Below the pieces are notes generated by a model. That model was not told the origin of the DNA. It saw only the letters and a program-made list of their open reading frames with translations, and did not search any database. A stretch of DNA of 64,000 bases from Halichondria panicea (taxonomy: Eukaryota; Porifera; Demospongiae; Suberitida; Halichondriidae), in assembly GCF_963675165.1 (NCBI RefSeq), contig NC_087383.1, forward strand, positions 4,866,979-4,930,978, written 5' to 3'. The position numbers were made by a program, and so were the translations under genes. Shown piece after piece: positions 18,910 through 64,000 of the stretch (position 1 is the first letter of the stretch; each line of letters starts with the position of its first letter).

Positions 18910-21900
18910 ATGGATACTATGTCAACCCTATTCACCGGAGTGATACTCTTTTCAATGCTGCTAGGTAATTACAATGTAGACTATCGCATAAAATTAATGT
19001 CAGCACATATTATAGCTATCGGTTTGATTGCAGTATTAGGCCTCAGCACACTTTTCTGGCAAATAACTATGCATGTGCATGTACTCATTGTGGTAACAAT
19101 TATTTCTGTGTTGTTATAGCTAGGCTCACACTTAACATTTCATTATTGGAAAACACATTTTGAAAGTATGACCTCAGAATTAAATGAAGCATGCACTCGG
19201 CAAATAACTGGTAGCATCAATGCCTTCCTAGGATATCGATGAAGTTTCGTTGCCTCACTAAACAACTCTGCCGCAATGGACTGCATAAAGTACTTGCCAT
19301 TTACGCAAAAATCCTAGTGTTGGTTGTCGGACTATGATTATGAGTGTACAGTGGACACATTTATAATGGACGGCATAATCTTATTTTGGAAAATAACTTT
19401 TCGACTGTACTACGATGAGTATGCGCAAAGATATTGGCTTTTATATCACCGTTGGCCCTTCCTATAATCAGAATATCATATAATTATAGTAGCTACTTAT
19501 ATGCATGTGGCAGAGCTAATTTAGTAAGGCAAAAACCCTTAACGTAAGAAAATATTGATGCTACCAGTTATTGGCGTAGGGAGTGCATGCATCATTCTAA
19601 GGGCATATACTCTCAAAATTGTTTTACAATTTTAAAACTCACTAGCTATGAATTTCAAACCACATGCCAATTACATCATTGTTGTGTAGAGGCTGTTTAC
19701 TCTTTGTTACAGGATAATCATAATCATTGCTAATGTTGTGTCGCACACTTTGCAGGTTCCCAGTGTCTCCGGTTCAATGTGCAGAATTCTGGAAATGTGT
19801 ATCAGTTTTCTACTCCTGAAAACACTGGTGATAATGGAGAATCGCTTGGTGCTGTGACATGTACTGAGAATGGTGGTGCTAGTCTTACTGGTCCTGTCAC
19901 ATACACAATACTACAGCCAGTATCTGTACCATTTATTCTTAATGGTAATACTGGAATGCTTACTCTTAAAACTGGAGAGATTTTGGACTACGAACAAACC
20001 CAACAGTACATATTTGACGTATCCTGTTCTTATGATTCTGATTCATCTATCAGTGCAACAACTAGTGTCACGTTTTTAGTTGACCCTGTGAACGAGTTTA
20101 AACCTGTTTTCAGTGATGTCTCTCTTCAAGTTTCCGTCACAGAGCTAACCCCAATTGGCATGGTCTTAGTTGCAAGAGATTCTTCTGGTACTAGACACTA
20201 CACTGTGAGTGATGAGGATAGCGGACCAGATGGAGAACTACGATTCTTACCAAGTTCAGCAAACCCACCAGAACTTGATCAAGATTTCAGTTTGAGTACG
20301 AATGGTACGCTAACTCTAAATCAAATAATCGAACTTGATACCGGAGTAACCGCAGTTAGACGTGTGACGTACCAAATAAGGGTTTGTGATGGAAACCGTG
20401 TGGAAGCAGATTGCCCATCTTTAGATGTTGTATTACTTATTAGATCAGACAATGACAATCTTCCGATGTTTGAGCAAGACAAGTACACTGTTACCGTATC
20501 TGAGTCAGTCCCCATTGGTACTAGTTTGATTACTGTGGTGTGTACTGATGCTGACCGCAATGGTGTGGGAGAATTTAGTGAGTTTACCGTTGAACAGCCC
20601 AATGCCCCAGTACACATACTTATTAATGGATCTATATTTCTCAAAGACAGTCTTGATTTTGAGAATTCTTCTGTTGTGACTGTTACTTTAGTCTGCTTAG
20701 ATAGTGGTGGCTTTCAAGATAATGCAACATTGATGATCACCATAACACCAGAAAACGATGGTGTCCCCAGCTTCAGCAAAACTCTCTTTGAATGTAATGT
20801 TTGTCGACTAGCAATCATTAGCGAAGAAATTTGTGAAGTTCAAGCAATTGACACTGATAATGATGTAATCACTTACACATTATCTGGACCAGGTAGTGAA
20901 AACTGTCAGATCAGGCCAGACGGTGTGTTAGTATTAAATGATATAGTTTTTGTTGCCGAAGGATCTTTCTTTGACCTCACGGTCACTGCAAGCGATGGAC
21001 TATTTAATACCAGCACAAATGTGCGACTTGCTGTCGACTGTTTGCTGTCCATTCCCGAGATCATTATTGTAGCAGTTTGTGGTGTGGTCTTGATTTTAGT
21101 GGTGATCATTGTCACTGTGATATGCTGCTGCTGTTTCATTGGGTGCTACCGGTGGTAAGTGACATTGTGTGTTTATAAATAGACAGTAATCCTTTTATAG
21201 TTGCTGCATGTGGTTGAAAATGTGCTTTTTGTTATCAGTCTACCTGAGAAGAAAAAAAAGAGGACTGATAGCGCAGTGGAAATGATGGACCAACTGGACT
21301 ATTTTCACCCAGCTATGCTACCACCACCAAGCATGTATGATCATGGTAAGCCATTATTATTATGCATTGTAACAGTTCGTCGTTTTGTGTATGTCACTAA
21401 CAAAAATATTGTAACAGTTAGGCCGAGCAAAGTTAATGTTTGTACCTTATATACCAGGTTGTATGCTAGGCATAGAACATGGACTTTGCACATCCAGTCG
21501 CGTGACAAAATTTTGCGGTCAGCAATAAAATTCGAAGGCACATTAGGCTGCAGAGAAACTAACAATTGGCCTCGTATGAGACGGTTGATATAGTGGTGCC
21601 ATGGACTGTTAGACGTATACACTAGCTTATCTCAAGTAGGTGTTACATTTTACTATTTGCCTGAGTTGCAAGCACACAGTATCAGTTACACTTTACAGTT
21701 TACTATGAGATTCACACGCACACACACACACCATGTAGGTGGCCCTGTATACCAGATGGCACAGAACCCTCACCACATGGGTGATGAGTGGCACGGATCA
21801 CAAGACCTATTGACAGAAGAGGGTGAAGACGATATCCCTGACATTGCCCTAGGTTCAAACACTCCCTCCTCTCGCATCTATAATCCCAACACACTAAAAG

Positions 21901-23307: not shown

Positions 23308-23488
23308 GCAGGCAGTCATGCCCTGCAAAAATTACATGTACATAGGTTCCATTTCTATTGCCTGCATTTTTCTAATAATGTTGACAAGCTCCTTTGGTGT
23401 AAGACTACATGGTATTTAGAATTGTATAACACCTCTTGAGAATTGTCTTAGACTAAACAACTGTCAAAAGCGCATACCACCCTGGTGC

Positions 23489-26400
23489 ATGAGTAATTCC
23501 GTACACACTGTCTGGCAATACGATATCATATTAAGGCATGTAAATACCTGTGATGCCAATGGGACGGGTCAGAGGCAATGGTCCATTATTGTAATTTTAT
23601 CAACGTGTTTTTTTCTTGTATATGTAAACAAAGGATGCACCTGGGGAGATGTACGATTCACTCGAGACACTTACTTGGCTTCTGTTAATGAGACAGCAGT
23701 AAACTCCCCTCGACCACTGCCAGGCTTTGTCACTGTGGCATGCACACATTCTTTAGACAACAGCACAAGCAATATTACGTATCAGCTCTTAAATAGCAAT
23801 AACACTTTCACTATTAACATGAACACTGGGGAGTTGACGGCAATATTGGACCTAGACTATGAAACTACTACTTTCTACCACATTCTCGTGCAATGCTGTA
23901 GTGAGTTGAATGTGACTTGGTCTGCTGAAGCACAACTAAACATCACTATTCTGCCTATAAATGAGTACAGACCAACTGTGTCTACTAAAACTGAGCAAAT
24001 ATCTATCCCTGAAGGAACACCTATTGGAACAGTGATAATTTCAACTATATCAGATGGTTTTGCAAGGACGTACAGTGCTTCAGATCTCGATGCTGGACCT
24101 CATGGAAATATTTACTATAGTATTGTGTTCACCACAGATAATAAAACGTTTGAATTCAACTCGACAGTTGGAGCACTTTACTTAGCGAGTGATTTTGATC
24201 TGGATGCTGACAGAATAACATTCAGGAGAGAGGTGATAGAAATAACAGCGTGTGATTCAGAGCCTCCCACACCTGATTGTCTAAACATTATTGTCACTGT
24301 GTTCCTCTCTACTGGAAATGATAATGCTCCAGTATTCATCTCATCGTTATTAAACGTCTCATTCCCAGAATCACTTGTTATCGGGACAACTATTGCCGTT
24401 GTTGAATGTATCGATGAGGATTTTTCTAGAGGGGTATTAGATGGGTATGAAATCATGTCTGTTTTCCCGTCCCAAACACCACAAGAAACGTTTACAGTTA
24501 CTGAATCTGGAAATATTACGATAGGTGAGACATTGGATTTTGAGTTAACAGATTTGTACGAAGTGCGAGTACGTTGTTTTGATTCTGACTTCGAGGATTT
24601 TGCTACTGTTCGAGTGAGCATCAGCGCAGTTAATGACAATACACCAAGGTTTGTTGAGTTGTCACTAAATGTGTCATTTCCTGAATCAGTTAGGCGTTTC
24701 ACAACAATTGCACAAGTTACCTGCAATGATGATGATGTGTTGATAGGGGAGTTATCAGGTTACGAAATAATATCACTCGATCCTCCACAAGCACCAAATG
24801 ATACTTTCTCCATCAACAGTACAGGGACAATCAAATTAGCTTTGTTTCTTGATTTTGAAATGGTACAAGTCTATGAGCTTGAAGTGAGATGCTTTGACTC
24901 TGGGACTCCAATAAAGGAAAGCGTTAGCGTTGTGACAGTTAATGTCATTCCTGTTAATGAACATTCACCGAAATTTCAAAATTCATCTTCAAAGAATGTG
25001 TCCGTCTTGGAATCTATAAATGTAACTACTGTTGTTGCACAAGTTGAGTGCTCAGATCGAGACCTTTCACAAGGTGCATTTGCGGGCTATGAATTGGTAT
25101 CAATCTCTCCACCTCAAACACCACAGGAAACATTTGTGATAAGCAGCACAGGGACCATTGTAGTAGGTTTGCCATTGGATTCGGAACTAATCGACTCATA
25201 CGAGCTACAAATTAGATGCTATGATTCGGGATATCCAGTGATGGAGGATTTCACTGCTGTTCGAGTGAGTCTAATTGATGTGAATGACAACAGCCCACAG
25301 TGCTCTCAGGTGCCTATCCACTACTTGCCCACAGGCACACATAGTCACAAACACATTTTAACCATAAACTGCACCGACGAGGATAACGGCCTGAACGGTA
25401 AATTAAGGTACACACTCGGCACTATCAGCCCTTTACTGAGTAGTGGATCTGTTGCAGTCAATCTACACACAGGTGAAAATACCTTCATTGGAACGATTAA
25501 TGAGAATGTGAATTACACAATAGTCATTCTAGTATCCGACCTTGGCACACCTTCACGCTCAACTAATGTGTCATTTGTAGTTAGTATTGTGGGTGTGGTT
25601 CCACCAATGACGCACTTATTCCCTCTGTGGGGAATTATTCTGATTGTAGAGGTAGGATTGTTGTTGGTATGCTGCTTGTTGATAGGCTTGATGTGCTGTT
25701 ACTATGGCAACTTCCTACGAAAAAGAGCCAAGCAGTACTTGATCAGGTAATCGAGTAAATAATACACCCATGCATGCATGCATGCCAATCGCTATGTATG
25801 CATGTATTGCATGATTTTACTTACATTTAATAGTTAGTGTCGTTCCCAGGCTGATTTTTCTCTAACGTTCTATTAGGGCCTGGGAATGAAGCTAACCATC
25901 TATACACATTAATTGCTTTAAATAATTTGTAGCGAGACAGTATCTGAGAATGCGACTGACGATTTTGGATTTGTAATAGCCCAATACCCTCTTGATAGTA
26001 AGTCGACCCACACACATCACATGCAACTATCTGAATCACCTATTTTTTCAATTCAGGAAAATCTCCTGATTTTCGAAGTGATCCTTCAATTGAGAGTGTG
26101 AGTAAATACATGTATGAAAGTGTGAGTAAATTTAGGCCAACTATCCGTAACACCGATATTTACAAAAATTAAACATGCACATGCATGCACAGAATATCAG
26201 CTACAAGGACTATGTACTTCAATTCAAGACTACATCCTTTAACAATGGCTCAGCCAGTCCAAAAACGCCTACCAGTGTTTCCTCTGTAACCTCTGAGGAA
26301 GAAAGTGAAGGACTCGTCTACACAACTTCCACGGAGTTTATCCTCAACCCAGCGACCACTGAACAAGAGCCGGCCCCGTCCTCTTGCGAAGATGAGCACA

Positions 26401-36607: not shown

Positions 36608-38170
36608 TTAGTTCTCGTCTCCATTTTCAATCTGATCGTACCACTCCAGTGATCGTTCCACTGCTTTCTGCCACAGCCGATACTGTACACTTGTAGCGCG
36701 TGTGGCGTCTTCAGTCTTAGGTACAAAGCATCGATCCAACTTCCATAGGGACTTGATTTCATCACGGCTCTTCCAAAATCCAGAAGACAAACCTGCTATG
36801 TAGATAGCACCGTAAACTGTCATGTCCACATCAGTTGGCCTCTCAACGGTTTTCCCCAACAGATTGCTAATTGTCTGCAACACAAAATTGTTCTTCGTAA
36901 CACCACCGTCAACTCTGATCTGCTTTATCTTCACACTGAGCTCACCCTGCGCCACGTCGTAAATCTGCTTGAAAGTGAACGCAAGAGATTCTAGCATTGC
37001 ACGTACAAGATGTTCTTTAGTTGTGCTGTGAGTTATCCCGATGACACTAGCTGTAGCTCGAGGGTCGTTGTAAGGGGCTTGAATACCATCAAAAGCTGGT
37101 ACAAAACAAACACCGTTCGAATCTTGAACTGATTCTGCAATGGCTTCTGTTTCTGATGGATCAGAAAACAAACTAAATCTTGCTCCCCATTCACAAACAC
37201 TGCCGCTGCTTGGAAAATTTGCCTCAGCAAGAAAAATCAACTCGCTCCCGATCTTCCAGCCTACAACCGGATACATACCCGTCAAAGAAGCATGAGGTTT
37301 GCTCCCAGTGTTGATGCACATAAACATACCTGTGCCCAGCGTACACTTCAGATCTCCAGGCTCCCAGCATCCTTGGGCAAAAGTAGCACTTGTTTGATCT
37401 GAGATGACACCAGTTATCGGAATTGCAGCACCGAAATGTTCCGCTGCCACATGCCCAAAGAGACCACCAGTGTCTTTAATCTCTGGAAAAATGGAACGAG
37501 GGAAACCCAGCACATTAATGATTGTGTCACTGTACTTCATTTGAAATGGATCAAACAGCAGAGTAGGTGAAACATGCGAGTAGTCAGTGGCATGCACAGA
37601 ACCGTTGGTTAGCTTCCATAGGATCCATGTATCGACTGTACCATAACACAGATTTTCTTCGTTGGCGAGTTTTTTGGCTCCTTCGACGTTGTTTAGAGCC
37701 CAATACAGTCGGGGTGCCACCTGTTGAGTGGTGAGAGTGACAATACTGGCTGCAAGGAATCGCTTACTTCGCGAGATCAAATGAAGGAATCCTCCTCCGA
37801 GTTTCAAGAACTTGAACTGCATTGACGAGTTCCACAACTTGCAAACTTCGTCTGCACGACGATCCTGCCATGTGATCAAGTTGCACAGAGGTTGACTGGT
37901 GGATCGATTCCACAACAGGAATGTGTTTCTTTGACAGGTAATTCCTAAGCAAGATGCTTGGGATGGATCAAGATGACCACTGCCAATAGTTGTGGAGACA
38001 ACATCTTTGAATCCTTGCCAAAGACACTCGGGGTCAATTTCCGAATAACCTGGCTGAGGATGTAGAACCTCGACTCCAGTGAAATGTGAGGATAGAGACC
38101 TTCCCTCCTTGTCAATAGCAAAACAGCGAATCCGTGTTGTCCCTACATCCACTCCCAGTACGTAGGCCAT
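36608..38170 (-). CDS. GK5: GK5-type glycerol kinase (FGGY family), intronless
   Basis: FGGY-family carbohydrate kinase, closest to the GK5 branch. The classic reaction is ATP-dependent phosphorylation of glycerol to sn-glycerol 3-phosphate; the physiological substrate of GK5 is less certain. A single 520-codon frame matches family length. Visible motifs: N-terminal phosphate loop GVDVGTTRIRCF, LITWQDRRADE, TLTTQQVAPRLYW, YGTVDTWILWKL, adenosine-region SDQTSATFAQG, TLGTGMF, FVPAFDGIQAPYNDPRA and the C-terminal DGGVTKNNFVLQ. The FITWQD/LITWQD and SRSKRFLAAS stretches are GK5-like and unlike classical GK. Unlike its multi-exon neighbours it has no introns, which suggests a retrocopy or intron loss. 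It is divergent from the UBE2U-like gene 470 bases away. Confidence 0.92.
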   Translation of the reverse strand: MAYVLGVDVGTTRIRCFAIDKEGRSLSSHFTGVEVLHPQPGYSEIDPECLWQGFKDVVSTTIGSGHLDPSQASCLGITCQRNTFLLWNRSTSQPLCNLITWQDRRADEVCKLWNSSMQFKFLKLGGGFLHLISRSKRFLAASIVTLTTQQVAPRLYWALNNVEGAKKLANEENLCYGTVDTWILWKLTNGSVHATDYSHVSPTLLFDPFQMKYSDTIINVLGFPRSIFPEIKDTGGLFGHVAAEHFGAAIPITGVISDQTSATFAQGCWEPGDLKCTLGTGMFMCINTGSKPHASLTGMYPVVGWKIGSELIFLAEANFPSSGSVCEWGARFSLFSDPSETEAIAESVQDSNGVCFVPAFDGIQAPYNDPRATASVIGITHSTTKEHLVRAMLESLAFTFKQIYDVAQGELSVKIKQIRVDGGVTKNNFVLQTISNLLGKTVERPTDVDMTVYGAIYIAGLSSGFWKSRDEIKSLWKLDRCFVPKTEDATRATSVQYRLWQKAVERSLEWYDQIENGDEN

Positions 38171-38640
38171 TGCTATTAAAGATTCAAAGGATCAATGTAA
38201 AAATGTATGATGCTAATCATTTTTATTTACTTTTTATTTACAAGACAAGACAGATAGACTACTTCATAGTAGTAGACTTGACTAATCCACTAGATATATC
38301 TACCACCCATGCATGCACCATGTACCAGTACATAATTTTATATAATTATACGTACATGTACGTATACTGTAGAGTACGTGTACAGTACGGTACACTAGAC
38401 TTTACTTAACATTAAAGTCTCACCTTGATGAGCTATTACAGTGTGTATCTATTTTGATATCACGTACATAAAGCTAGCCATAATTATTTAAATTAATTTT
38501 AATTACTGCAAAATAAAAAAATGACCTGATTTTTTCCGGGTGTGTTGACCTTTGCCTGGGAGGTCACCGCTCTAATAGAGCGAATTAAATAGATCTAGGT
38601 CACTATAGAAACAAAATTTTAAAATAGATACCCTGCAAAA
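38171..38640. promoter_or_regulatory. Spacer between divergent GK5 and UBE2U-like gene
   Basis: 470 AT-rich bases between two start codons on opposite strands; likely a shared promoter. No TATA box at a convincing position. Confidence 0.45.
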
Positions 38641-42171: not shown

Positions 42172-43850
42172 CATACAATGTACATGTACATGCAGTGTCA
42201 TAATTAATTTTTAACGTTTACTATAGTCACAAAAATAATCTTAATGAGCTCTGCATATATGCAAGGGTCAATGTCTATTTATTATTTAAACACATTTAGC
42301 TTTGTAAGGTATGCCTTAGCGCATACAAAATGTACACATTGTTGTGATTTATCAGGGTGGTCTCGTAGATAATCGTTCAAGGCAATGCTTTGAAAATGTC
42401 CTCCTCCAACCAGTATCAGGCATTTCGATCTACTGGCAATGGTTCTTTGTAGTGCTGCAATGTAGCCAGGGTTTGTGTTACCTTCTGCTGCATGATTCAA
42501 ATTTGACTCCCATGTTTTATAACTCCATTCTCCATTGAATATTGTAGAAAGCGTTTTCTTTGTTTTAGCTATTAGGTCAGTTAAATTTAATCCAAAATGT
42601 GATGTAGTAGTAGCCCATGAAATGCTTCCAGAATCCCCAAAATCAAGTGTTACAAATGGTTTGCTGAATTTAGGGTCGTGTTGTTTTCCTATTGTATCAC
42701 TTAATGCGATCACTTCTGTCATACATTTGTCAACATCCATTTGGTGTGAGTCATGTAAAAATTCCACCATTCTTTCCAGTCGGAACATAATTGATAGAGC
42801 TACCTTACCACCGAGGAATTGACGCTCGTACCATTTCACTTGATCAACAATTTTTTGGCTGGGTTTATAAAGATTTGTTGTAGGACACTCGGAAATATTT
42901 ATGCTTTTGCTTGTCAATGGTGTATACCATTTTCCCCTCCACAAAGTAAATACCGTAGTTACTTCAATTGGCGACCAACTTCCATAAATTGCATCTCTCG
43001 CCTCTTCCTGAGAAAAGATCTTCCTCCTGGCTAGAGAGAATGGTGCTTGTACAACCTTCACGATACAGTAACCAGCTTCCATAGAAAAGCTCCGTATGTG
43101 CTTATGCCATCCACTTGGTGCCTTTTGTGGATCAAGACATTGGTTTGATCGTGTGTGTGTTATTTCTGGCCAAAGCACTTTTAATTGTCTTTCTTTTTCT
43201 GGTACGCTCCTTGTCACCAACACCAACACAATCTTCTTTGAAGCGTGTTCAAAGAAGTAGTCTCGAGTTGCTAGCTGTGACTAAGTTATTTTCCCTTGCC
43301 ACTTTGTTGAAAAAACTAGTGTCAAACAGGTTAGTTAGTGTTATGTGGGAGGAATTGTTGCTTGTTCCAGTACTTGTTATGTCAGATACCAGTACACCAT
43401 TGGCTATCGTTGGCTCTAGAATTATCATTGGCACACTTAGGGTACTTGCCCAACATTGCAGAGATTTTAATGCCTTTATCCCTGAACCTTGTTGACCACT
43501 GTACCGTAATGCTGTCACAAATCCTTCTTTCATATCCTTTGTAATTTTGTGGGAAGTTGAAGAGTGGATGCCAAGTTGTGATGTCAAATGATCCTGTTTG
43601 ATTGACTCCATAGTTGTATCTCGGACATTTAGCCACTGATAAAATAATACGGCAGCTACTGTAGAGAATACTACTAGCAATAGAAACAACCTATGATTTC
43701 TAACTAAGCAACCCATATGTACGTTTAACTTGTATGTGTAGGACATCTAAATCGATTTGCACGACAACTGTGGAATTTGTGTGAAGCCATTCACATTTAG
43801 TTAAAGTACCAGAAACCATTCTTTTGTTATGTTTTAGCTAGATTGTTTGC
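39962..43850. repeat. Segmental duplication unit A
   Basis: From about 39962 this unit matches 46747 onward (unit B), and from about 41560 it also matches 51995 onward (unit C). The match includes introns and spacers, so it is a DNA-level duplication. It covers exons 3-9 of the UBE2U-like gene and the convergent membrane-protein gene. Unit A also shares right-hand flanking sequence with unit C (43865 onward resembles 55256 onward). Confidence 0.85.
42282..43716 (-). pseudogene. Frameshifted copy (A) of the type II membrane-protein gene
   Basis: Same gene as the intact copies at 49235-50677 and 52730-54175. Relative to them it has one extra base at 43280, which shifts the frame and brings a stop at 43249. 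It also has a nine-base in-frame deletion near 43210 and an eight-base deletion just upstream of the Met at 43716, which would disconnect any longer N-terminus. The downstream frame (43229-42282) is otherwise intact, so the break is recent. A sequencing error is possible for the single base. Confidence 0.8.
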
Positions 43851-44718: not shown

Positions 44719-45972
44719 TATGGTTTCTCAGCATACATACAGGTGATTACAAAAAAACAGGACAATATAGTGAGTGTACAGCTGAAGGCTAATCTGAAAC
44801 TAGTCAGATTTCCCAGTGTGAGAGATAGATTATAGAGAACAAGTGATTCACAAACGAACACTAATGACCATTGTGGAGCATTTACTGCAGGGGGACAGAG
44901 AAAATGAAAGGAACATGTGTTGTAGGGGTCGAAATGAGTTACAAAGTGGGACCATAGAAATCGGTTGATCAGTGTCCTTTATGCATTGAGATGATAGAGA
45001 CATATCAATGGCCGGTAGGCAGTTCCACAGTCTGGGCAGACGGTTAAAATAGAAATGACGGTGTTGATTGTGGCTTGATCTGGTGTGACGGAGGGTGAGC
45101 TTGTCAGATGAGATATTGAGACGAAATCTGTAATGCAGAAGCGATTTGTTTTGCTTTTAAATGAGTTAACAAAGAACATTATGTCTGCCAGCTCGAAGGA
45201 GTACATCAGAGGAAGTAACTTTAACTTCACTAGTCTTTCCTTGTAGTCACCATCAGAGTTGCCTAGGATAAACTTTGTTGCTCTCTTCTGAATACGCTCC
45301 AGAGCTTCAGTATCTTTGACTAGCATTGGTCTCCAAAGGTGTGAGCAATACGACAGCTGTGAGCGAACCAGTGACAGGTATAGCTTCTTCTTGGTATATA
45401 CTGAGTTGGATGATGAGAAAGTACGGCGGAGTAAACCTAAATGTCTGTATCCCTTAGCAGAAATGCTGTCATAATGCTTGTGCCAGCCCAGATCCTGTTG
45501 CAGTATTATCCCCAGGTCTCTGTGACTCTCCTTTGGTGAGATCGGCCTCCCCGAAAGGAAGTAAGAGGAGTTCATAAAGAGTGAGGGGTTTTTAGAGAAT
45601 TTCAACAACACACATTTTTGAGAATTAAAAGAGAAGTTCCATTTGTTGCTCCAATCATTCAGCATATCAAGGTTCGATTGTAGTTCAATTGTATCTGAGG
45701 TTGATTTCATCTGATGAGAGCATTTGGTATCATCTGCAAAGATATGAATATTAGAGAAGTTAATGCTAAGAGGAAGATCATTGATATAAACCAGGAAAAG
45801 CATAGGCCCAAGGATGCTTCCTTGCGGAACTCCAGAAGATACCGGTAGGAGAGTTGAGTGGTGACCATTGATGGATACCATTTGCCGTCTAGAAGTAAGG
45901 TATTCTTTAAACCATCTCCATAGTGCGCCGGAAATCCCCAGATCATGGAGTTTGAAGAGAAGTTCCTTATGG
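44686..45972 (-). mobile_element. 5'-truncated non-LTR retrotransposon (LINE) with reverse transcriptase C-terminal part
   Basis: The minus-strand frame 45972-44979 encodes the palm and thumb region of a LINE reverse transcriptase. It contains the GVPQGSILGP motif, the catalytic-box variant FADDTK, then RDLGIIL, LVRSQLSYCSHLW and ERIQKRATKF blocks. The 3' end (44718-44688 on the plus strand) is a run of AAT units, as in CR1/Jockey-group elements. GGTACATA flanks the insertion on both sides (44678-44685 and 45973-45980). The unfilled site is visible at 56635 in the duplicated flank. The element lacks its 5' half and is presumably inactive. Confidence 0.88.
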
Positions 45973-46099
45973 GGTACATACAATGTAGAAGAGGTTACTA
46001 GAGCAGGGATTGGAACGGAAGTAATATTTTACAATGAAGTCCACGTACAGTGCATCCAATCTATAGAGAGTAGATTACCACAAATGTGTGAGTAGTTGT

Positions 46100-49234: not shown

Positions 49235-50677
49235 TTATTTAAACACATTTAGCTTTGTAAGGTATGCCTTAGCGCATACAAAATGTACACATTGTTGTGA
49301 TTTATCAGGGTGGTCTCGTAGATAATCGTTCAAGGCAATGCTTTGAAAATGTCCTCCTCCAACCAGTATCAGGCATTTCGATCTACTGGCAATGGTTCTT
49401 TGTAGTGCTGCAATGTAGCCAGGGTTTGTGTTACCTTCTGCTGCATGATTCAAATTTGACTCCCATGTTTTATAACTCCATTCTCCATTGAATATTGTAG
49501 AAAGCGTTTTCTTTGTTTTAGCTATTAGGTCAGTTAAATTTAATCCAAAATGTGATGTAGTAGTAGCCCATGAAATGCTTCCAGAATCCCCAAAATCAAG
49601 TGTTACAAATGGTTTGCTGAATTTAGGGTCGTGTTGTTTTCCTACTGTATCACTTAATGCGATCACTTCTGTCAGACACTTGTCAATATCCATTTGGTGT
49701 GAGCCATGTAAAAATTCCACCATTCTTTCCAGTCGGAACATAATTGATAGAGCTGCCTTACCACCGAGGAATTGACGCTCGTACCATTTCACTCGATCAA
49801 GAATTTTTTGGCTGGGTTTATAAAGATTTGTTGTAGGACACTCAGGAATATTTGTGGTGTTGCTTGTCAATGGTGTATACCATCCTTCCCTCCACAAAGT
49901 AAAGACCGTAGTTACTTCAATTGGCGACCAACTTCCATAAATTGCATCTCTCGCCTCTTCCTGAGAAAAGATCTTCCTCCTGGCTGCAGAGAATGGTGCT
50001 TGTACAACCTTCACGATACAGTAACCAGCTTCCATAGAAAAGCTCCGTATGTGCTTATGCCATCCACTTGGTGCCTTTTGTGGATCAAGACATTGGTTTG
50101 ATCGTGTGTGTGTTATTTCTGGCCAAAGCACTTTTACTTGTCTTTCTTTTTCTGGTACGCTCCTAGTCGCCCATTCCATCAATACCAACACAATCTTCTT
50201 TGAAGCGTGTTCAAAGAAGTAGTCTCGAGTTGCTAGCTGTGCTAAGTTATTTTCCCTTGCCACTTTGTTGAAAAAACTAGTGTCCCACAAGTTATTTAAT
50301 GTTATGTGGGAGGAATTGTTGCTTGTTCCAGTACTTGTTATGTCAGATACCAGTGCACCACTGACTATTGTTGGCTCTAGAATTATCATTGGCACACTCA
50401 GGGTACTTGCCCAACATTGCAGAGATTTTAATGCCTTTATCCCTGAACCTTGTTGACCACTGTATCGTAATACTGTCACAAATCCTTCTTTCATATCCTT
50501 TGTAATTTTGTGGGAAGTTGAAGAGTGGATGCCAGGTTGTGATGTCAAAGGATCCTGTTTGATTGACTCCATAGTTGTATCTCGGACATTTAGCCACTGA
50601 TAGAATAATACGGCAGCTACTGTAGAGAATACTACTAGCAATAGAAACAACCTACGATTTCTAACTAAGCGACCCAT
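49235..50677 (-). CDS. Type II membrane protein, possible Golgi glycosyltransferase (copy B, intact)
   Basis: Intronless, 480 residues from the Met at 50677. A longer frame starts at 50788, but the shorter start puts a short basic tail (MGRLVRNRR) right before the hydrophobic anchor LFLLLVVFSTVAAVLFYQWL, the usual layout of type II Golgi proteins. The lumenal part has several NxS/T sites, FGDSGSISW, SIMFRLERMVEF and, near the end, KCLILVGGGHFQSIAL. The RLER and GGGHFQ blocks loosely resemble O-fucosyltransferase-type GT-B enzymes. That is inference, and I do not recognise the family with certainty. It is convergent with the UBE2U-like copy, with about 110 bases between the stops. Confidence 0.7.
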   Translation of the reverse strand: MGRLVRNRRLFLLLVVFSTVAAVLFYQWLNVRDTTMESIKQDPLTSQPGIHSSTSHKITKDMKEGFVTVLRYSGQQGSGIKALKSLQCWASTLSVPMIILEPTIVSGALVSDITSTGTSNNSSHITLNNLWDTSFFNKVARENNLAQLATRDYFFEHASKKIVLVLMEWATRSVPEKERQVKVLWPEITHTRSNQCLDPQKAPSGWHKHIRSFSMEAGYCIVKVVQAPFSAARRKIFSQEEARDAIYGSWSPIEVTTVFTLWREGWYTPLTSNTTNIPECPTTNLYKPSQKILDRVKWYERQFLGGKAALSIMFRLERMVEFLHGSHQMDIDKCLTEVIALSDTVGKQHDPKFSKPFVTLDFGDSGSISWATTTSHFGLNLTDLIAKTKKTLSTIFNGEWSYKTWESNLNHAAEGNTNPGYIAALQRTIASRSKCLILVGGGHFQSIALNDYLRDHPDKSQQCVHFVCAKAYLTKLNVFK

Positions 50678-51378
50678 ATCGGTACATGTACGTTTAACTT
50701 GTATGTGTAGAACATCTAAATCGATTTGCACGACAACTGTGGAATTTGTGTGAAGCCATTCACATTTTGTTAAAGTACCAGAAACCATTCTTCTGTTACG
50801 TTCCAGCTAGATTGTTCGCTGACACATTTTTTTTACTGCATAATTGTTAATGCTGTAATTTGTGTGCATGGTTTACATGTAAGCTGCTCAACATTCACCC
50901 ATTGCTTACTTCCATACAATCATATGAGAAGCCCACTTATTTTCAGTATCAACAGCCCAAGTCACTATCTACATGTATACCACGGGGCAAGTCAAAGTGT
51001 CTAAGTCACCTTCATAGAAAATACAGCACCCCGACGCTGATGCTATGAGACTGAGAGTGGACAAATCGACAGCAATTGGTAGCTAGTGGCCTAAGTATCC
51101 AATTGAAATGTACAATAGCGACAATTAAGTCACTGCATAAAGCTGCCAATGATTGAATATTTGGCGTTCCGCCTATCACCTTATCCAGTAAATTCCATGA
51201 CCTAGACAAGATAACTCATGCAAGAGGGATGTACAGGTAATACAACTCGAGCCCGGCAATAAGGCCGTATAATAACACTGCACTGTCATGGGAAAAACCT
51301 TACTGCTATGTGCCTTGTGACAGGAGAGTGCGAGTCTTATAATTTTGTGTATGAAGTTGGTATATAGCAACCAATCTG

Positions 51379-52729: not shown

Positions 52730-54175
52730 TTAAACACCATCGTTTAGCTTTGTAAGGTACACCTTAGCGCATACAAATTGTACACATTGTTGTGATTTAT
52801 CAGGGTGGTCTCGTAGATAATCGTTCAAGGCAATGCTTTGAAAATGTCCTCCTCCAACCAGTATCAGGCATTTCGATCTACTGGCAATGGTTCTTTGTAG
52901 TGCTGCAATGTAGCCAGGGTTTGTGTTACTTTCTGCTGCATGATTCAAATTTGACTCCCATGTTTTATAACTCCATTCTCCATTGAATATTGTAGAAAGC
53001 GTTTTCTTTGTTTTAGCTATTAGGTCAGTTAAATTTAATCCAAAATGTGATGTAGTAGTAGCCCATGAAATGCTTCCAGAATCCCCAAAATCAAGTGTTA
53101 CAAATGGTTTGCTGAATTTAGGGTCGTGTTGTTTTCCTACTGTATCACTTAATGCGATCACTTCTGTCAGACACTTGTCAACATCCATTTGGTGTGAGCC
53201 ATGTAAAAATTCCACCATTCTTTCCAGTCGGAACATAATTGATAGAGCTGCCTTACCACCGAGGAATTGACGTTCGTACCATTTTGCTCGATCAACAATT
53301 TTTTGGCTGGGTTTATAAAGATTTGTTGTAGGACACTCAGAAATATTTGTGCTTTTGCTTGTCAATGGTGTATACCATCCTCCCCTCCACAAAGTAAATA
53401 CCGTAGTTACTTCAATTGGCGACCAACTTCCATAAATTGCATCTCTCGCCTCTTCCTGAGAAAAGATCTTCCTCCTGGCTGCAGAGAATGGTGCTTGTAC
53501 AACCTTCACGATACAGTAACCAGCTTCCATAGAAAAGCTCTGTATGTGCTTATTATGCCATCCACTTGGTGCCTTTTGTGGATCAAGACATTGGTTTGAT
53601 CGTGTGTGTGTTATTTCTGGCCAAAGCACTTTTACTTGTCTTTCTTTTTCTGGTACGCTCCTAGTCGCCCATTCCATCAATACCAATACAATCTTCTTTG
53701 AAGCGTGTTCAAAGAAGTAGTCTCGAGTTGCTAGCTGTGCTAAGTTATTTTCCCTTGCCACTTTGTTGAAAAAACTAGTGTCCCACAAGTTATTTAATGT
53801 TATGTGGGAGGAATTGTTGCTTGTTCCAGTACTTGTTATGTCAGATACCAGTGCACCACTGACTATTGTTGGCTCTAGAATTATCATTGGCACACTCAGG
53901 GTACTTGCCCAACATTGCAGAGATTTTAATGCCTTTATCCCTGAACCTTGTTGACCACTGTATCGTAATACTGTCACAAATCCTTCTTTCATATCCTTTG
54001 TAATTTTGTGGGAAGTTGAAGAGTGGATGCCAGGTTGTGATGTCAAAGGATCCTGTTTGATTGACTCCATAGTTGTATCTCGGACATTTAGCCACTGATA
54101 GAATAATACGGCAGCTACTGTAGAGAATACTACTAGCAATAGAAACAACCTACGATTTCTAACTAAGCAACCCAT
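52730..54175 (-). CDS. Type II membrane protein, possible Golgi glycosyltransferase (copy C, intact)
   Basis: Intronless, 481 residues from the Met at 54175 (MGCLVRNRR before the membrane anchor); a longer frame opens at 54289. Nearly identical to copy B. It differs by an extra Asn codon (GWHNKH), a few substitutions and a changed C-terminus (KLNDGV in place of KLNVFK, caused by a small insertion before the stop). The same NxS/T sites, SIMFRLERMVEF and KCLILVGGGHFQ blocks are present. Function is not known; glycosyltransferase activity is inferred only from the topology and the two loose motifs. Confidence 0.7.
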   Translation of the reverse strand: MGCLVRNRRLFLLLVVFSTVAAVLFYQWLNVRDTTMESIKQDPLTSQPGIHSSTSHKITKDMKEGFVTVLRYSGQQGSGIKALKSLQCWASTLSVPMIILEPTIVSGALVSDITSTGTSNNSSHITLNNLWDTSFFNKVARENNLAQLATRDYFFEHASKKIVLVLMEWATRSVPEKERQVKVLWPEITHTRSNQCLDPQKAPSGWHNKHIQSFSMEAGYCIVKVVQAPFSAARRKIFSQEEARDAIYGSWSPIEVTTVFTLWRGGWYTPLTSKSTNISECPTTNLYKPSQKIVDRAKWYERQFLGGKAALSIMFRLERMVEFLHGSHQMDVDKCLTEVIALSDTVGKQHDPKFSKPFVTLDFGDSGSISWATTTSHFGLNLTDLIAKTKKTLSTIFNGEWSYKTWESNLNHAAESNTNPGYIAALQRTIASRSKCLILVGGGHFQSIALNDYLRDHPDKSQQCVQFVCAKVYLTKLNDGV

Positions 54176-54339
54176 ATCGGTACATGTACGTTTAACTTGT
54201 ATGTGTAGAACAACATCTAAATCGATTTGCACGACAACTGTGGAATTTGGGTGAAGCCATTCACATTTAGTTAAAGTACCAGAAACCATTCTTCTGTTAT
54301 GTTCCAGCTAGATTGTTCGCTGACACATTTTTTTTTACT

Positions 54340-59389: not shown

Positions 59390-61243
59390 GTGATTCAACA
59401 CAGCATGCCGATCAGTGCTGATCAGTGGAGAGTGGTGATTGGCTGCAACAATGTCAGGAGGCATCGTCAAATTGATTTGAAACAATTCTGCTTGGAAAAG
59501 ATGATTTTGGGGGGAAGCAGTATACAGTTGGATCTATCCGATCTATCTCAGCTGGACGCAGTGGTGCAAGAAGTACGGAAAGATGCTGAAACAAGCCATT
59601 CTGCGACACTTAATGGTAAATTATATATACTGGTATCAGAGGAATGATTGTCATATTCCTGCCTAAGGTAACAGGAGTAAGAACTTGATGAATCCCCCTA
59701 GCTAGATCGTTAACCGCATGCGGGTTTAGCCTTGTGGCAAACGTTGCACGAGTCTCTACACGGAGTTTGACTAGTCTTTTTTCACATGCAAAAAGTGCTG
59801 GCTTGCAAGTCTAGCGTTACATGCATGCTTCGACGATTGACTGTTTTCATTATAAAGTACAAGCCATCATGAGAACGGTCAAGGCTAGCTATAGTAGCAA
59901 GGTAGCAAGCTAGCTACATGTACATGTAGGTTAGCCTTGCCATTGCTTGTTACTCGTGCTATTAATCCCATATTGCACTCTATTAATTGTAGTCTCATGA
60001 ATCAGCCGCACCTCTCGGTATCCGTTTTACATGAAGTCATTGCACAATGGAATGTATTACGTCACTAGCACTAACAAAACTATAAAAATGCAACCACACC
60101 CGCTATCTCTGCTCAGCCACATCACTGCTTGCTGCTCAACCGCATGTAAAGTTTCACTATTTGCTGCCTCCTATTCAAGTCACCTGATGCTTGTGAGCAA
60201 TCTCATTGGTCACATTGGAAATCCACCGTGGCCCATGAGTTCACTTAAAGAGTACTCAGACGGACACCGAGAGGTGCGGCTGATTCATAATACTACTATT
60301 AATTGTACATTAATACACTGGTAGCTGCTTTGTAGCATGCAATTAGGGTAATCTCAGTAGAGTGCAGAGGAGTTACTTGTAGAATGCATGTAGCTTCGGT
60401 TACAATTAAGCTTATAGCACACCTGTTGTTTGTGCCACTGCATGAATATCAACGTGATCGTGAATACATTTATTGCTGGTCTGATCACCCCTTTTTGAGG
60501 TTTGAGGCTGAGCGTTCACCATTTGAGGTGGTACGTTATCATTGGCACTATAATTGGTATGTGACGCTACTGCTAGGCACAGTAGATCAAGTAAGTATTA
60601 TGATGATACAATTCCTCTTGGCATTAAAAAAGGGGGTGTGTCCTAAAATGTTCGGACCTTCTATCATTTTGCTACCCCTGTAAACCTACGCTATCTACGA
60701 CCCTGATCAGAACAACTATAGATCCGAAGTGAATGTGCAATGAAGCACATCGATCGTATAAAAGAGATTCCTTGGTTCTGAAAAAGCACTTGTAAAAGTG
60801 ATGCCTCATTTGATTGATAATACTGTAACAGCTGGTGAGTGGCTGTTGCATGCGTATGAAACTATAGATCTCTAGCATTATCTTAGCCTCGATCCCAGGC
60901 AAATTTTTTTAAATAGAACGAAGTTGAAAAATACGGCCTGGTATTGATTGTATCTGGGCGTGGCAGGAACCGGAAACCAAAGCAGAGATTCTTCACACTT
61001 CGTTTCCTGTCATATTTCCCCGTGTAAGTTTAATACCGTAATTTAGCTCCGTGTATGCTCTGAAGTAACTAAAATCTAGCCATGGATTATCTAGCTAGCT
61101 AGCTAGCTACTGCAAGTTTAAGTTGTTCAGATTAACGTACACATTGTCTGCTTCACAAAAACTTTAAAAGGCCCCACTCTCATTGCAGAACAGGCCCAGC
61201 TCTTGTCAGAAGGAAGAAACGTTTTTGCCATGGTTTTCAACAT
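59390..61243 (+). other. Weak exon candidates of an unrecognised gene
   Basis: Three stretches look exon-like. 59390-59616 is an open frame beginning MIQHS and ending at a GGTAAAT donor-like site. About 60400-60591 is an open frame with EYQRDREYIYCWSD and YHWHYNWYVTLLLG, ending before GTAAGTA. About 61187-61243 follows a good CTCTCATTGCAG acceptor. I recognise no family, the phases cannot be verified, and a MITE separates the first two. Confidence 0.25.
59989..60296. mobile_element. MITE with 8-bp target-site duplication (hAT-like)
   Basis: The left end GTAGTCTCATGAATCAGCCG and right end CGGCTGATTCATAATACTAC are inverted over about 37 bases. TATTAATT flanks both sides (59981-59988 and 60297-60304). 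Eight-base duplications fit hAT transposases; family is inference. The open frame inside is not considered a gene. Confidence 0.88.
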
Positions 61244-61455
61244 GGTATGGCAAATCTCTTGCTTTCACTCACTGCCCTTTGTGATGGACTACAAACTAGT
61301 AGGTGTAGGACCAACACTACCGGCCCTTCTTGCAAATCTCTCTGCTTCTTGTTTATTGGTTCCTAACCACGCCCAGATACACGCCCAAATACAATCAACA
61401 CCAGGCCTAGTTGTCGGCCTAGCTAGAAACAACTCTGCCTGGAATCGAGACTAGC
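60884..61455. mobile_element. Possible non-autonomous transposon with CTCGATCCCAGGC ends
   Basis: The left end TTAGCCTCGATCCCAGGCA and right end TGCCTGGAATCGAGACTAG are imperfect inverted repeats. The same terminal motif recurs singly at 18331, 34246, 55757 and 62634, suggesting an abundant family. Boundaries are tentative. Confidence 0.45.
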
Positions 61456-61636
61456 ATTGTCTAGGACCACTTTTTTCAGGAGGAACTGGTCCGGAGAAAC
61501 AAACGTTTCATTCCCTGACAGAAACGTTGGTGTACCAACATTTAAGTATTAGTTTATTGCCCAGCCAGGCGCTTGCAATAACTAACTTGTTGCCCAATGA
61601 CGTTAAACTCTCGTCTGACTGGTCATATAAGTCGTA

Positions 61637-61853
61637 ATAAAAGACATGTGTTTTGAAGGAATTTAGTGTTTTGAAGGAATTTAGTGTGTTTGCTGAATTC
61701 CATAGTAAATTTTTAGGTTTTCTTACCACTTCTAGTAGTAGCCTATAATAAAAGTCATAATAAAAGACATGTGTTTTGAAGGAATTTAGTGTGTTTGCTG
61801 AATTCCATAGTAAATTTTTAGGTTTTCTTACCACTTCTAGTAGTAGCCTATAA
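61637..61853. repeat. Tandem duplication of a roughly 100-base unit
   Basis: A block beginning TAATAAAAGACATGTGTTTT and running through TACCACTTCTAGTAGTAGCC occurs twice in tandem. The first copy has an extra short internal repeat of TTTTGAAGGAATTTAGTG. Confidence 0.85.
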
Positions 61854-63125
61854 ACCGGACCAAATGAGTTATTGGGTGGGATGGTGGGGAAGTCCCAAAT
61901 GGATATCTCTTAAACAAGTGATAGTTAGGCCTTCTAAGCAAAATTAGCCATAGTTCCCCACAAAGCACTATTTTGCAAATCCCCAAATTGAGAAAATAAT
62001 GACTAAAAGCGTCTTCATTGATCATTTATTGAGCAGCTAGTCTACAAAACAAACACATGCACAAACACACCGAGGCTAGGCATAAATGTAGACATGATAA
62101 ACTGGCTATAATTATAAAAGGGAATTAGTACTAGGGAAGCATTGTCGAAGAGAAGTTGTAGTGATCGAGTTCATCACTTGTTCGACTTGCTGTTTCTATA
62201 TAGGCTTAGTAGGATCCGTCTCCAGCTTATCTTATATAGGCTAGTGTCAGCTTTACTCTGTTCAGACGATTGTCATCCACACTGTTGCAAGGCTGTGAGT
62301 ATTTTGTGAGCATATATATAAGCTACGGGTAGCTATCAGAATGCTATCATGATGGGCTAGAAACCTTCAATCGAACGTTCTATCTACATTTACTTCCTTC
62401 AATCCACACTTCCGTTCGTTGTGACGTCATTGTTTTACTGAGCATATAGATCTACGTTGTTATCCTGCGTTAGCCGGTATTTGGCTAATGGTTAGCGCAT
62501 GCGCAAGCAGTCGATACCAGGCCCACAATGTAGCGTTATAATCATTATTTTTACTACTTGTGTTACTCGTATACAGGTTTACTGTTTATTGTTTGTGCTT
62601 TGTGCAAAAAAAAAAAAACTCTTCGAGAAATTGCGGCCTGGGATCGAGGCTAGGGCTATTTGTTTAAGAAAGAGAAAGGAGCCATACTTGACGGTACTAA
62701 GACTCAAAGCGACGGCAGAAACACGGAAGCTGCTCTCCAACAAGATGGCTAAGCCTCAACGGGTCCATGGGCGTGGTTTAGATACATTTTATCCAAGAAG
62801 AGCTTGCAACTCCATGAGGGACGTGTCGAATGGTCAACGCTTGTACCAAGGAAGCTCTTGAGCCTCTGTAGGAGTCGACGTATTGCTCAACTAGCTCTTT
62901 GACGGCTGTAAAATCCGGCATATCCTTTTCTTACGTGTGGTATATCCTATACTTTACTGTTATTCAGCACCCACAATATATACCCACGACAAGTATAAAA
63001 TGGCCTGGATCTGCAGCTGCTCGTGACAGTGCATCACTTTATTTACAAAAGTAATAATGGCAATAAAGTATTAGGCTGCATACGTTTTGGCCAAGCTCTA
63101 AGGCTCCAAAAATAGCGTGCGATAT
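61854..63125. other. Intergenic region, no gene supported
   Basis: Contains a GCATGCGC motif, a poly-A run near 62607 and a copy of the GCGGCCTGGGATCGAGGC repeat end at 62632. The 120-codon frame at 62499 crosses these repeats and shows no family character. Confidence 0.5.
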
Positions 63126-63346
63126 CAAGAGTCCATAATACGAGAGAGAGAGTATCGAACGAAACCTTGTCTTGCATCGGAAAGCGTTTAATGACAATTT
63201 CCATGGCAATGACATATTGCTGTCTCAAGGCAAGTGGCTGCTTCAGGCGCTCAGATTAGTCAGTTAGCAAACAAGAAGTCAAGTTAATTTCTGATGCAGG
63301 GCTAAGCTACGTTCGATACTCTCTTCTCTTCTATTATGGACTCTTG
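63126..63346. mobile_element. Foldback MITE with CAAGAGTCC ends
   Basis: The left end CAAGAGTCCATAATA...AGAGTATCGAACG and right end CGTTCGATACTCTCTTC...TATTATGGACTCTTG pair over about 35 bases. GCGATAT flanks both sides (63119-63125 and 63347-63353), a seven-base duplication. Confidence 0.85.
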
Positions 63347-63592
63347 GCGATATTTACAGGGTCCTGTGTATAATCGTTGTAATCATTACACCCCCCCCTC
63401 CAAATGTTCTTGTGTGTAATTATTACTTTAGTTGATTCTTGTATGAATTGTGTGCCTCGTGGTTTATCAGATAAGTCTCTAATTGCATGCACGGTATTGC
63501 ACACGCATGTGTATTATACCAAACATAATTGTCCATTATACTGAATTGTTTGTACAGATTTTATCTTGGATGATTCCCTCGACGAATTATCG

Positions 63593-64000
63593 ATGATATT
63601 GATGACTGTATGTTGTCACATATTATGTGTCGAGGTGCTTCAATGCTTCCTATCCATGGTCAAGTTGCAACTCCTTCAATTGGCTGGAGATGTGGAAACA
63701 AATCCTGGTCCTGGTAAATTAAATATGGAACTTTTATTTATCCAGGCATTGAAATCAATTTGTACAGAGACCCCTGAGTACAGGACAATGGTATCGTGCA
63801 TCAAGGAGTTGACTGATACAACTGCTCGTGGTGTCTCTGGAATCAGTGATGTTTTATTCGCGAGATCGCTTATGTCAGATGAGATTCATCGAAAAATGAT
63901 GGACACTTATCTAGAAGACCATAAAAAAGCTTCGATACTGATTAAAGACGTCTCTGGTCAAATCAAGTTGAATCCTGAAAAATTCCTCGTCTTTGTTGAT
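63593..64000 (+). CDS. 2A-peptide-led protein with CARD-like domain (N-terminus only)
   Basis: The frame opens at the first Met after an in-frame stop (63542) and runs 136 codons to the window edge. A hydrophobic, Cys-rich leader of about 30 residues leads into LQLLQLAGDVETNPGP. This ends in the invariant 2A core D(V/I)ExNPGP (63689-63712). There the ribosome releases the peptide after Gly39 and resumes at Pro40 without a peptide bond. About ten residues later begins a helical region with ISDVLFARSLMSDEIHRKMM, then KKASILIKDVSGQIKLNPEKF. The spacing resembles CARD/death-fold domains of invertebrate NLR-type proteins. N-terminal 2A leaders that double as signal peptides are known from sea-urchin NLR genes. 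An upstream exon is possible through the TTTGTACAG acceptor at 63549-63557, but the frame already has a Met. Confidence 0.7.
   Translation, partial: MILMTVCCHILCVEVLQCFLSMVKLQLLQLAGDVETNPGPGKLNMELLFIQALKSICTETPEYRTMVSCIKELTDTTARGVSGISDVLFARSLMSDEIHRKMMDTYLEDHKKASILIKDVSGQIKLNPEKFLVFVD
63689..63712 (+). other. 2A-like recoding motif (DVETNPGP)
   Basis: Codons GAT GTG GAA ACA AAT CCT GGT CCT give an exact match to the 2A core, preceded by a Leu-rich helix-forming stretch and Gly, as active 2A sequences require. This is seen directly; activity is inferred from the conserved core. Confidence 0.85.

Follow-up and report, generated by a model that had tools for sequence, protein, structure and literature searches.

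A stretch of 64,000 nt from the sponge Halichondria panicea (C7:4866979-4930978, referred to here as the window) ends inside a gene that carries a 2A (StopGo) core, which raises the question of what protein follows this core and how it would be made. The exact core DVETNPGP, which the preliminary description had placed after a Leu-rich stretch, is indeed present at 63689-63712 on the forward strand, immediately after an L-rich stretch ending in LLQLAG, and it is the sole match to [DGCN][VI]ExNPGP in all six frames of the window. The window copy has both sequence features of 2A/StopGo elements, the core (D/G/C/N)(V/I)ExNPGP and an L-rich motif ending in (A/S/C)G, which the accessible part of Li et al. 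(2026, PMC12846837) gives for viral StopGo sequences.

The gene around the 2A core

For the gene model, we examined 34 kb of the contig, starting 1.7 kb 5′ of the 2A. Joining seven exons gave a 695-aa protein for the window copy, all six introns being GT-AG, and a tandem paralogue 24 kb downstream fitted the same seven exons in a 703-aa open frame, its boundaries being set by homology. In this model the gene encodes, in this order, the 2A leader, a CARD, a death-like domain, a linker and an astacin-like metalloprotease, and then stops. Its features are as follows.

59405-59615, forward strand: probable first coding exon with ATG, MPISADQWRVVIGCNNVRRHRQIDL...SATLN; phase-1 donor G/GTAAAT; putatively assigned to the 2A gene
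59616-63557, forward strand: probable intron of 3.9 kb; phase-1 donor at 59616 and acceptor ttgtacag at 63550-63557; presumed, and may contain further exons
63558-63713, forward strand: 2A leader exon, FILDDSLDELSMILMTVCCHILCVEVLQCFLSMVKLQLLQLAG-DVETNPGP; phase 1 at either end, with a hydrophobic stretch
63689-63712, forward strand: 2A/StopGo core DVETNPGP; expected break between Gly and Pro
63714-63767, forward strand: 54-nt phase-1 intron, GTAAAT...ACAG; its 52-nt homologue in the paralogue breaks the frame
63768-64000, on to C7:4931057, forward strand: CARD-like exon, about the first 78 residues inside the window
C7:4931120-4931524, beyond the window: death-like exon
C7:4931598-4931717, beyond the window: linker exon
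C7:4931772-4932465, beyond the window: astacin-like exon
C7:4932529-4932719, beyond the window: last exon

The 136-aa frame that had been taken for a single continuous exon had to be rejected, as it is interrupted by the 54-nt intron after the 2A. This intron is open by chance and the 18 residues following NPGP in that frame (GKLNMELLFIQALKSICT) are its translation; the reading of the paralogue can go on only if the 52-nt homologue there, which shifts the frame, is spliced out. Apart from the putative first intron, the introns of the window copy are 54-73 nt long.

The 5′ end was revised as well. The 2A had been located 39 residues from the first Met, which would make it N-terminal; this Met (63593) is GTG in the paralogue and was rejected as the start codon. 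The 5′ edge of the 2A exon is a conserved splice acceptor (ttgtacag/ATTTTATC) at 63558, so that the 39-residue leader is probably not the true N-terminus. A candidate first exon, 4 kb 5′ of the 2A exon, starts with MPISADQWRVVIG... (also given as MPISADQWRVVIGCNNVRR...), and the paralogue carries the same first exon 3.7 kb before its 2A exon. Its phase is compatible with the acceptor of the 2A exon and leads into the open 695-aa frame. Leaders that we read on C1, C4, C5 and C10 carry, contiguous with their 2A, related but not identical starts of the form M(P/G)I(S/T/G)..E.WRxR(I/T)G, and 25 of the 27 matches to E..WR(A/V)RIG in the genome stand 252-377 nt before a 2A; exon 1 of the window gene (DQWRVVIG) is related to these starts and falls outside the searched pattern. 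Together, the upstream MPIS exon and the acceptor point to a leader that is probably about 121 aa long and spliced from an exon 4 kb away, as against the 39-residue signal peptide proposed before.

Translation could instead start at a Met inside the 2A exon (63602 or 63656), which would give a short leader like that of sea urchins, with the MPIS exon belonging to another gene. Both of these Met codons are kept in the paralogue, a hydrophobic stretch (Kyte-Doolittle maximum of 2.14 over 19 aa) lies immediately 5′ of the 2A, and 3.9 kb is long for a first intron where the others have 54-73 nt. However, a phase-1 acceptor at the 2A exon is conserved together with a phase-1 donor at exon 1 in both copies, and the leaders on C1, C4, C5 and C10 have the related N-terminus contiguous with the 2A. 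We consider an internal start unlikely, although of the alternatives it fares best.

Domains after the 2A and divergence of the paralogues

Of the death-fold-like helical region that had been described as running directly on from the 2A, the fold was borne out by modelling while the uninterrupted frame was not, an intron lying in between. The AlphaFold model of the CARD exon, built with an alignment of 15 sequences, had a mean pLDDT of 88.3 and a pTM of 0.76; the modelled chain ended in ~20 low-pLDDT residues of the translated next intron, outside the aligned part. The best Foldseek match was the Apaf-1 CARD (probability 1.00, TMt 0.81 for 1cy5, E 0.25-0.33), with no match at E 0.001 or better, and Apaf-1 CARD was also the best match in VIA (Z 12.6, rmsd 2.3 over 93 residues, residues ~1-100), where the rows were mostly CARDs down to Z 6. 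DSSP assigned seven helices, the first two of which may equal the kinked first helix of CARDs. Pfam named no CARD in the window protein or in the spliced protein at the thresholds used, and our local CARD profile gave weak and mixed matches to PDB sequences (ICEBERG best, at 0.013, then mostly unrelated proteins). Because Pfam, the PDB profile search and the Foldseek E values are all weak, the CARD identity rests on the fold, and the model argues for a CARD-like helical bundle in the exon after the 2A.

The second domain resembles a death domain. Its Pfam Death match (E 0.0077, 16.8 bits) lies under the cut-off of 22.6; in its model of medium confidence (pLDDT 71.2), the top three Foldseek matches and the first 16 VIA rows were death domains, RAIDD being the best in VIA (Z 8.1). 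The third part is a predicted astacin-like zinc metalloprotease, with a Pfam Astacin match of 30.9 bits against a cut-off of 22.5 over profile positions 79-143 of 189, and myroilysin as the best phmmer match (1.2e-5). It carries HEFGHALGMEHEHQR and SVMHY, which match the astacin zinc motif HExxHxxGxxHxxxR and the Met-turn. A hydrophobic 2A leader stands before the CARD and death-like domain of an astacin-like protein, and the earlier proposal, that an immune-type gene here carries a 2A leader ahead of a CARD-like domain, is supported.

Between the two paralogues, dS was 0.16-0.22 in the 2A, CARD, death-domain and protease exons and 0.26 in the last exon. The dN/dS was 0.12 in the 2A exon (3 nonsynonymous and 6 synonymous, 9 changes only), 1.15 in the CARD exon (49 nonsynonymous and 12 synonymous), 1.29 in the death-domain exon and 0.70 in the protease exon; for nonsynonymous changes in the 2A exon versus the CARD, Fisher p was 1.6e-6. 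The 2A exon is conserved while the adaptor domains, CARD and death domain, diverge fast, the counts in the 2A exon being small. Exon 1 is 97.6% identical between the paralogues, and we dropped this as a sign of selection because its upstream flank shares the low divergence (99.0% identity); gene conversion may be responsible.

2A sites across the genome

The 131-Mb genome holds 91 DVExNPGP and 25 DIExNPGP sites and 0 matches to the reversed patterns, and the core motif is therefore not due to chance. The class counts given here rest on the 91 DVE sites, all of which were read; four of the 25 DIE sites (L109, L112, L113 and L114) were read as DNA. A G directly precedes the core in 91/91 DVE sites, at a position outside the searched letters, and A, S or C precedes that G in 90/91. 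A strong splice donor, always in phase 1, was found within 45 nt of the 2A in 80/91 sites, a count that includes L099, where the frame runs on for 293 aa and the donor may be spurious; donors further downstream were spread over the three phases (135/156/123).

The preliminary description had guessed at a wider system, and the genome agrees with this: 77 of the 91 DVE sites were followed by a death-fold exon on the same strand within 880 nt, against 0 on the opposite strand and 0 in shuffled DNA. This count was obtained with two profiles made here from 17 death-domain and 15 CARD sequences, drawn from 27 of the 91 loci; among the 64 sites outside the training set, many of them paralogues of training loci, 51 also had a death-fold exon. 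Against PDB, the death-domain profile had 14 matches at E 1 or better, all of them death-domain proteins (PIDD, FADD, CRADD). Pfam at 0.01 named Death in 3/91 downstream ORFs (one ORF per site, taken as the first to reach 85 aa or, where none did, the longest), and since it is nearly blind to these domains, we used local profiles, PDB searches and structure. The 91 sites are not independent, because their clusters are close paralogues; mechanical clustering divided the leaders into 21 clusters, which are probably over-split.

No death-fold match was found at 14/91 DVE sites. Five of these (L041, L046, L047, L053 and L054) make up a single family whose coding continues past the 2A, L045 is LINE-like, L016 has a death-like ORF farther away than 880 nt, L044 and L097 have relatives with death-domain matches in their leader families, and L052 and L101 have no death-fold match within 880 nt. 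At L043, L098 and L099 (C6 and C16), the 2A leads without interruption into an ORF that has a polar stretch and a CxxC...SHxxP domain common to the three sites; the continuation of L098 (L110) had no Pfam match at 0.05.

Within a C14-type family of 46 copies (43 on C14 and one each on C6, C13 and C16), counted at up to 3 mismatches from a 39-nt consensus so that copies decayed further lie outside the search, the core residues E, N, P, G and P were unchanged in 46/46. The changes found were V to I (3), D to N (2) and changes at the free x position (2), all of them within the viral StopGo motif as worded in the accessible part of PMC12846837.

These counts also bear on whether the 2A-like exon is a mere signal or anchor, or a fossil 2A that is read through to give a single membrane-bound protein. 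Many leaders are hydrophobic, although only 57/91 reach a Kyte-Doolittle value of 1.6 or more in the 45 aa before the core, a copy on C2 with internal stops has the decayed core DVKPNPGP, and phase-1 introns are common after signal peptides. For a plain signal, however, one would not expect the core to be retained together with (A/S/C)G at 90/91 sites, and the absence of change at E, N, P, G and P in the 46 copies (at 3 mismatches or fewer), like the dN/dS of the 2A exon, also speaks against it. We regard a read-through anchor as improbable.

We then scored 102 of 265 candidate NACHT matches. Thirteen of the 102 lay within 8 kb of any 2A, and 13/13 of these, spread over five contigs, stood on the strand of the 2A, 1.1-5.5 kb downstream of it; the other 89 had no searched 2A within 8 kb. 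The NACHT ORFs that we read 3′ of 2A sites, L102 (C14), L103 (C15) and L106 (C1), were 963-1063 aa each. On C10, the 2A site L046 is followed on the same strand by a death-like ORF, which had no Pfam name and was 21% identical when aligned with the window death domain, and by a Roc-COR ORF (L108). Going by order and strand, we infer that these NACHT and Roc-COR ORFs are transcribed together with the 2A exons before them, and if these exon chains hold, 2A leaders would serve at least three effector types. As predicted from sequence, several kinds of death-fold immune-type genes have this leader in front of them, an L-rich stretch with (A/S/C)G-DVExNPGP that in most cases has a phase-1 donor just after it; the combinations are CARD/death domain with NACHT, death-like with Roc-COR, and CARD-death domain-metalloprotease.

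Although NACHT ORFs follow other 2A sites, it is very improbable that the window gene itself is an NLR with its NACHT and LRR part beyond the window, as had been expected: the 32 kb downstream contain not one of the 102 scored NACHT matches, Pfam named no NACHT, LRR, endonuclease or RT in the spliced 695-aa protein, and the CARD, death-like domain and astacin-like metalloprotease are found there instead, followed by a stop. The assembled exon chain led us to reject the NLR structure for this gene, unless it has alternative 3′ exons.

2A sequences of LINE type also occur in this genome. At least 4 of the 25 DIE sites had an RT 1.72-1.74 kb downstream on the same strand; RT proximity was scored on 26 of 150 listed RT matches, picked by eye near 2A sites, and other LINE 2As may be missed. 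At the DVE site L045, a PHD- and endonuclease-like ORF follows the 2A and is LINE-like, and the Pfam scan of the 91 ORFs had one member each for PHD- and endonuclease-like families, the site not being named. In the LINE sites read (L045, L112 and L113), the sequence after the 2A starts with W(K/R)YP, and no WRxRIG leader was seen. Despite such LINEs, origin of the window 2A from a non-LTR retrotransposon, or recent capture of one by the gene, is the least credible of the alternatives, as reading the downstream contig for the endonuclease or RT that the preliminary description had named as counter-evidence found none in the gene, its exons close with a metalloprotease and a stop, and its leader is not that of the LINE sites; LINE origin of the locus was rejected.

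The 2A core was absent from the examined stretch upstream of at least four CARD-like exons (L003, L005, L006 and L008, on C8, C3, C9 and C5). In C8:4824911-4830463, a CARD-like exon with no 2A core in the 1.5 kb upstream is followed on its strand, 3.5-5.3 kb away, by two astacin matches, linked to it by proximity only. Because such 2A-less CARD-like relatives exist, the leader is common and not obligatory. The region after the death-domain or CARD exons at L105, L107, L108 and L006 had no Pfam name where scanned, and in three of these it starts with CxxC or CxC and then has an FP(Y/K)L stretch; our guess is that it may be a TRADD-N-like unit as in Amphimedon.

Known systems, proposed mechanism and neighbouring features

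The arrangement is of a kind already known from sea-urchin NLRs. In the accessible part of Roulston et al. (2016, PMC4981915), one NLR 2A leader of Strongylocentrotus purpuratus gave ~80% recoding and dual targeting, a Pro mutant moved the cargo mainly to the Golgi, and a 26-aa 2A leader was present in 14/87 NLRs. As there, a hydrophobic 2A leader would be N-terminal to NACHT-type immune genes here. Differences from what this part of the paper describes are the number of sites (91 + 25 core sites here, a few of them in LINEs, against 14/87 NLRs), the greater length of the leaders, which in several families have related starts of the form M(P/G)I(S/T/G)..WRxR(I/T)G, the phase-1 donor usually found just after the 2A, and the non-NLR partners, Roc-COR and metalloprotease. 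The window gene differs further in having an astacin-like domain where a sea-urchin-type NLR would have a NACHT in the same gene.

The sites share the core and the L-rich (A/S/C)G motif with viral StopGo sequences as given in the accessible part of PMC12846837, which treats cellular use of 2A as very rare; here they stand in cellular, spliced genes. In the part of PMC11512398 that was available, the only non-viral places named for 2A are non-LTR retrotransposons and NLRs, with Odon et al. (2013) referenced for 2A in APE-type non-LTR retrotransposons. In APE-type LINEs the 2A is followed by endonuclease/RT, of which the window gene has none in frame downstream, and the LINEs of this genome that we read lack the WRxRIG leader.

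Lineage-specific expansions of death-like/TRADD-N proteins in Amphimedon have 1-3 N-terminal death-like domains and variable, often fast-evolving C-termini (PMC8195603, accessible part). The window gene likewise has N-terminal death-like domains; a 2A leader and an astacin effector are not mentioned in that part. The astacin family is described as extracellular, with a signal peptide and a prodomain (PMC9848320, accessible part). Our protein has the zinc motif, the Met-turn and a Pfam Astacin match over the cut-off in common with it, and differs in that this domain stands behind a 2A, a CARD and a death domain. Among the matches listed, the open-access literature held no 2A leader in sponge or death-fold genes beyond sea-urchin NLRs and no CARD-astacin combination. 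Relative to these matches, the scale, the occurrence with partners other than NLRs, the related leaders with their greater length, the uniform phase-1 donor and the CARD-death domain-metalloprotease would be new.

We consider it likely that the window holds a cellular gene with a 2A/StopGo leader, which would yield an upstream protein of ~121 aa and then a protein of ~574 aa composed of Pro, CARD, death-like domain, linker and astacin-like protease. This builds on the motif, the open exon chain in two copies, the CARD-like fold, the catalytic motif, the genome-wide association and the low dN/dS of the 2A exon; recoding activity, targeting, the immune role and the place of exon 1 in the window gene are what we infer. 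The upstream protein would consist of MPIS...WRVVIG... and a hydrophobic segment ending in ...LLQLAGDVETNPG. By skipping the Gly-Pro bond at NPG/P, the ribosome would free this leader and go on to make a cytosolic CARD-death domain protease that begins with Pro. Where skipping fails, the hydrophobic leader would be retained and the protein might be sent or tethered to membranes, by analogy with the sea-urchin NLR leader (PMC4981915).

CARD or DED prodomains recruit caspases. In the window protein, the CARD and death domain might in the same manner recruit the protease to an oligomeric signalling platform; the protease would be a zinc metzincin, whereas that of the CARD/DED caspases is a cysteine protease. 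Since a death-fold prodomain is joined to a protease, as in these caspases, activation by proximity is plausible.

Going further, we tentatively suggest, as a possibility somewhat short of an even chance, that the phase-1 2A exon is a shuffled module marking a large class of death-fold immune genes (NACHT, Roc-COR and metalloprotease), in which StopGo efficiency would set, for each molecule, whether a sensor or effector is free in the cytosol or tethered to membranes, with the CARD-death domain-metzincin as a caspase-like zinc branch. The sequences would then point to wide use of 2A recoding in animal immunity, and with death-fold exons after 77 of the 91 DVE sites, StopGo would be systematic in an innate-immune gene set of an animal. 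If so, translational stress in infection could by itself determine where the immune machinery is localised and at what dose, and many natural leaders would be available for testing dual targeting and stress control. The CARD-death domain-metalloprotease, for its part, suggests a non-caspase protease effector wired to death-fold signalling.

Elsewhere in the window, long forward-strand ORFs lie at 12431-13843, 15643-17112, 19734-21155 and 23420-25747. The first and the last, which were the two scanned, have cadherin domains, with six stretches in 23420-25747, and the first three have a common stretch like SGNVYQFSSPENTG; from these sequences, the ORFs appear to be a tandem cadherin-like cluster. 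On the reverse strand, closely similar ORFs at 42285-43746, 49238-50806 and 52733-54307 have a common hydrophobic stretch, RLFLLLVVFSTVAAVLFYQ, and the second of them had no Pfam match at 0.001. The reverse strand also carries an FGGY-family carbohydrate kinase at 36611-38191 and a reverse transcriptase fragment at 44982-46028. Beyond the window, GTPase-like ORFs adjoin both copies of the 2A-protease gene: C7:4937344-4938687, which Pfam named Dynamin_N, next to the window copy, and C7:4958091-4959305, read as an ORF only, next to the paralogue.
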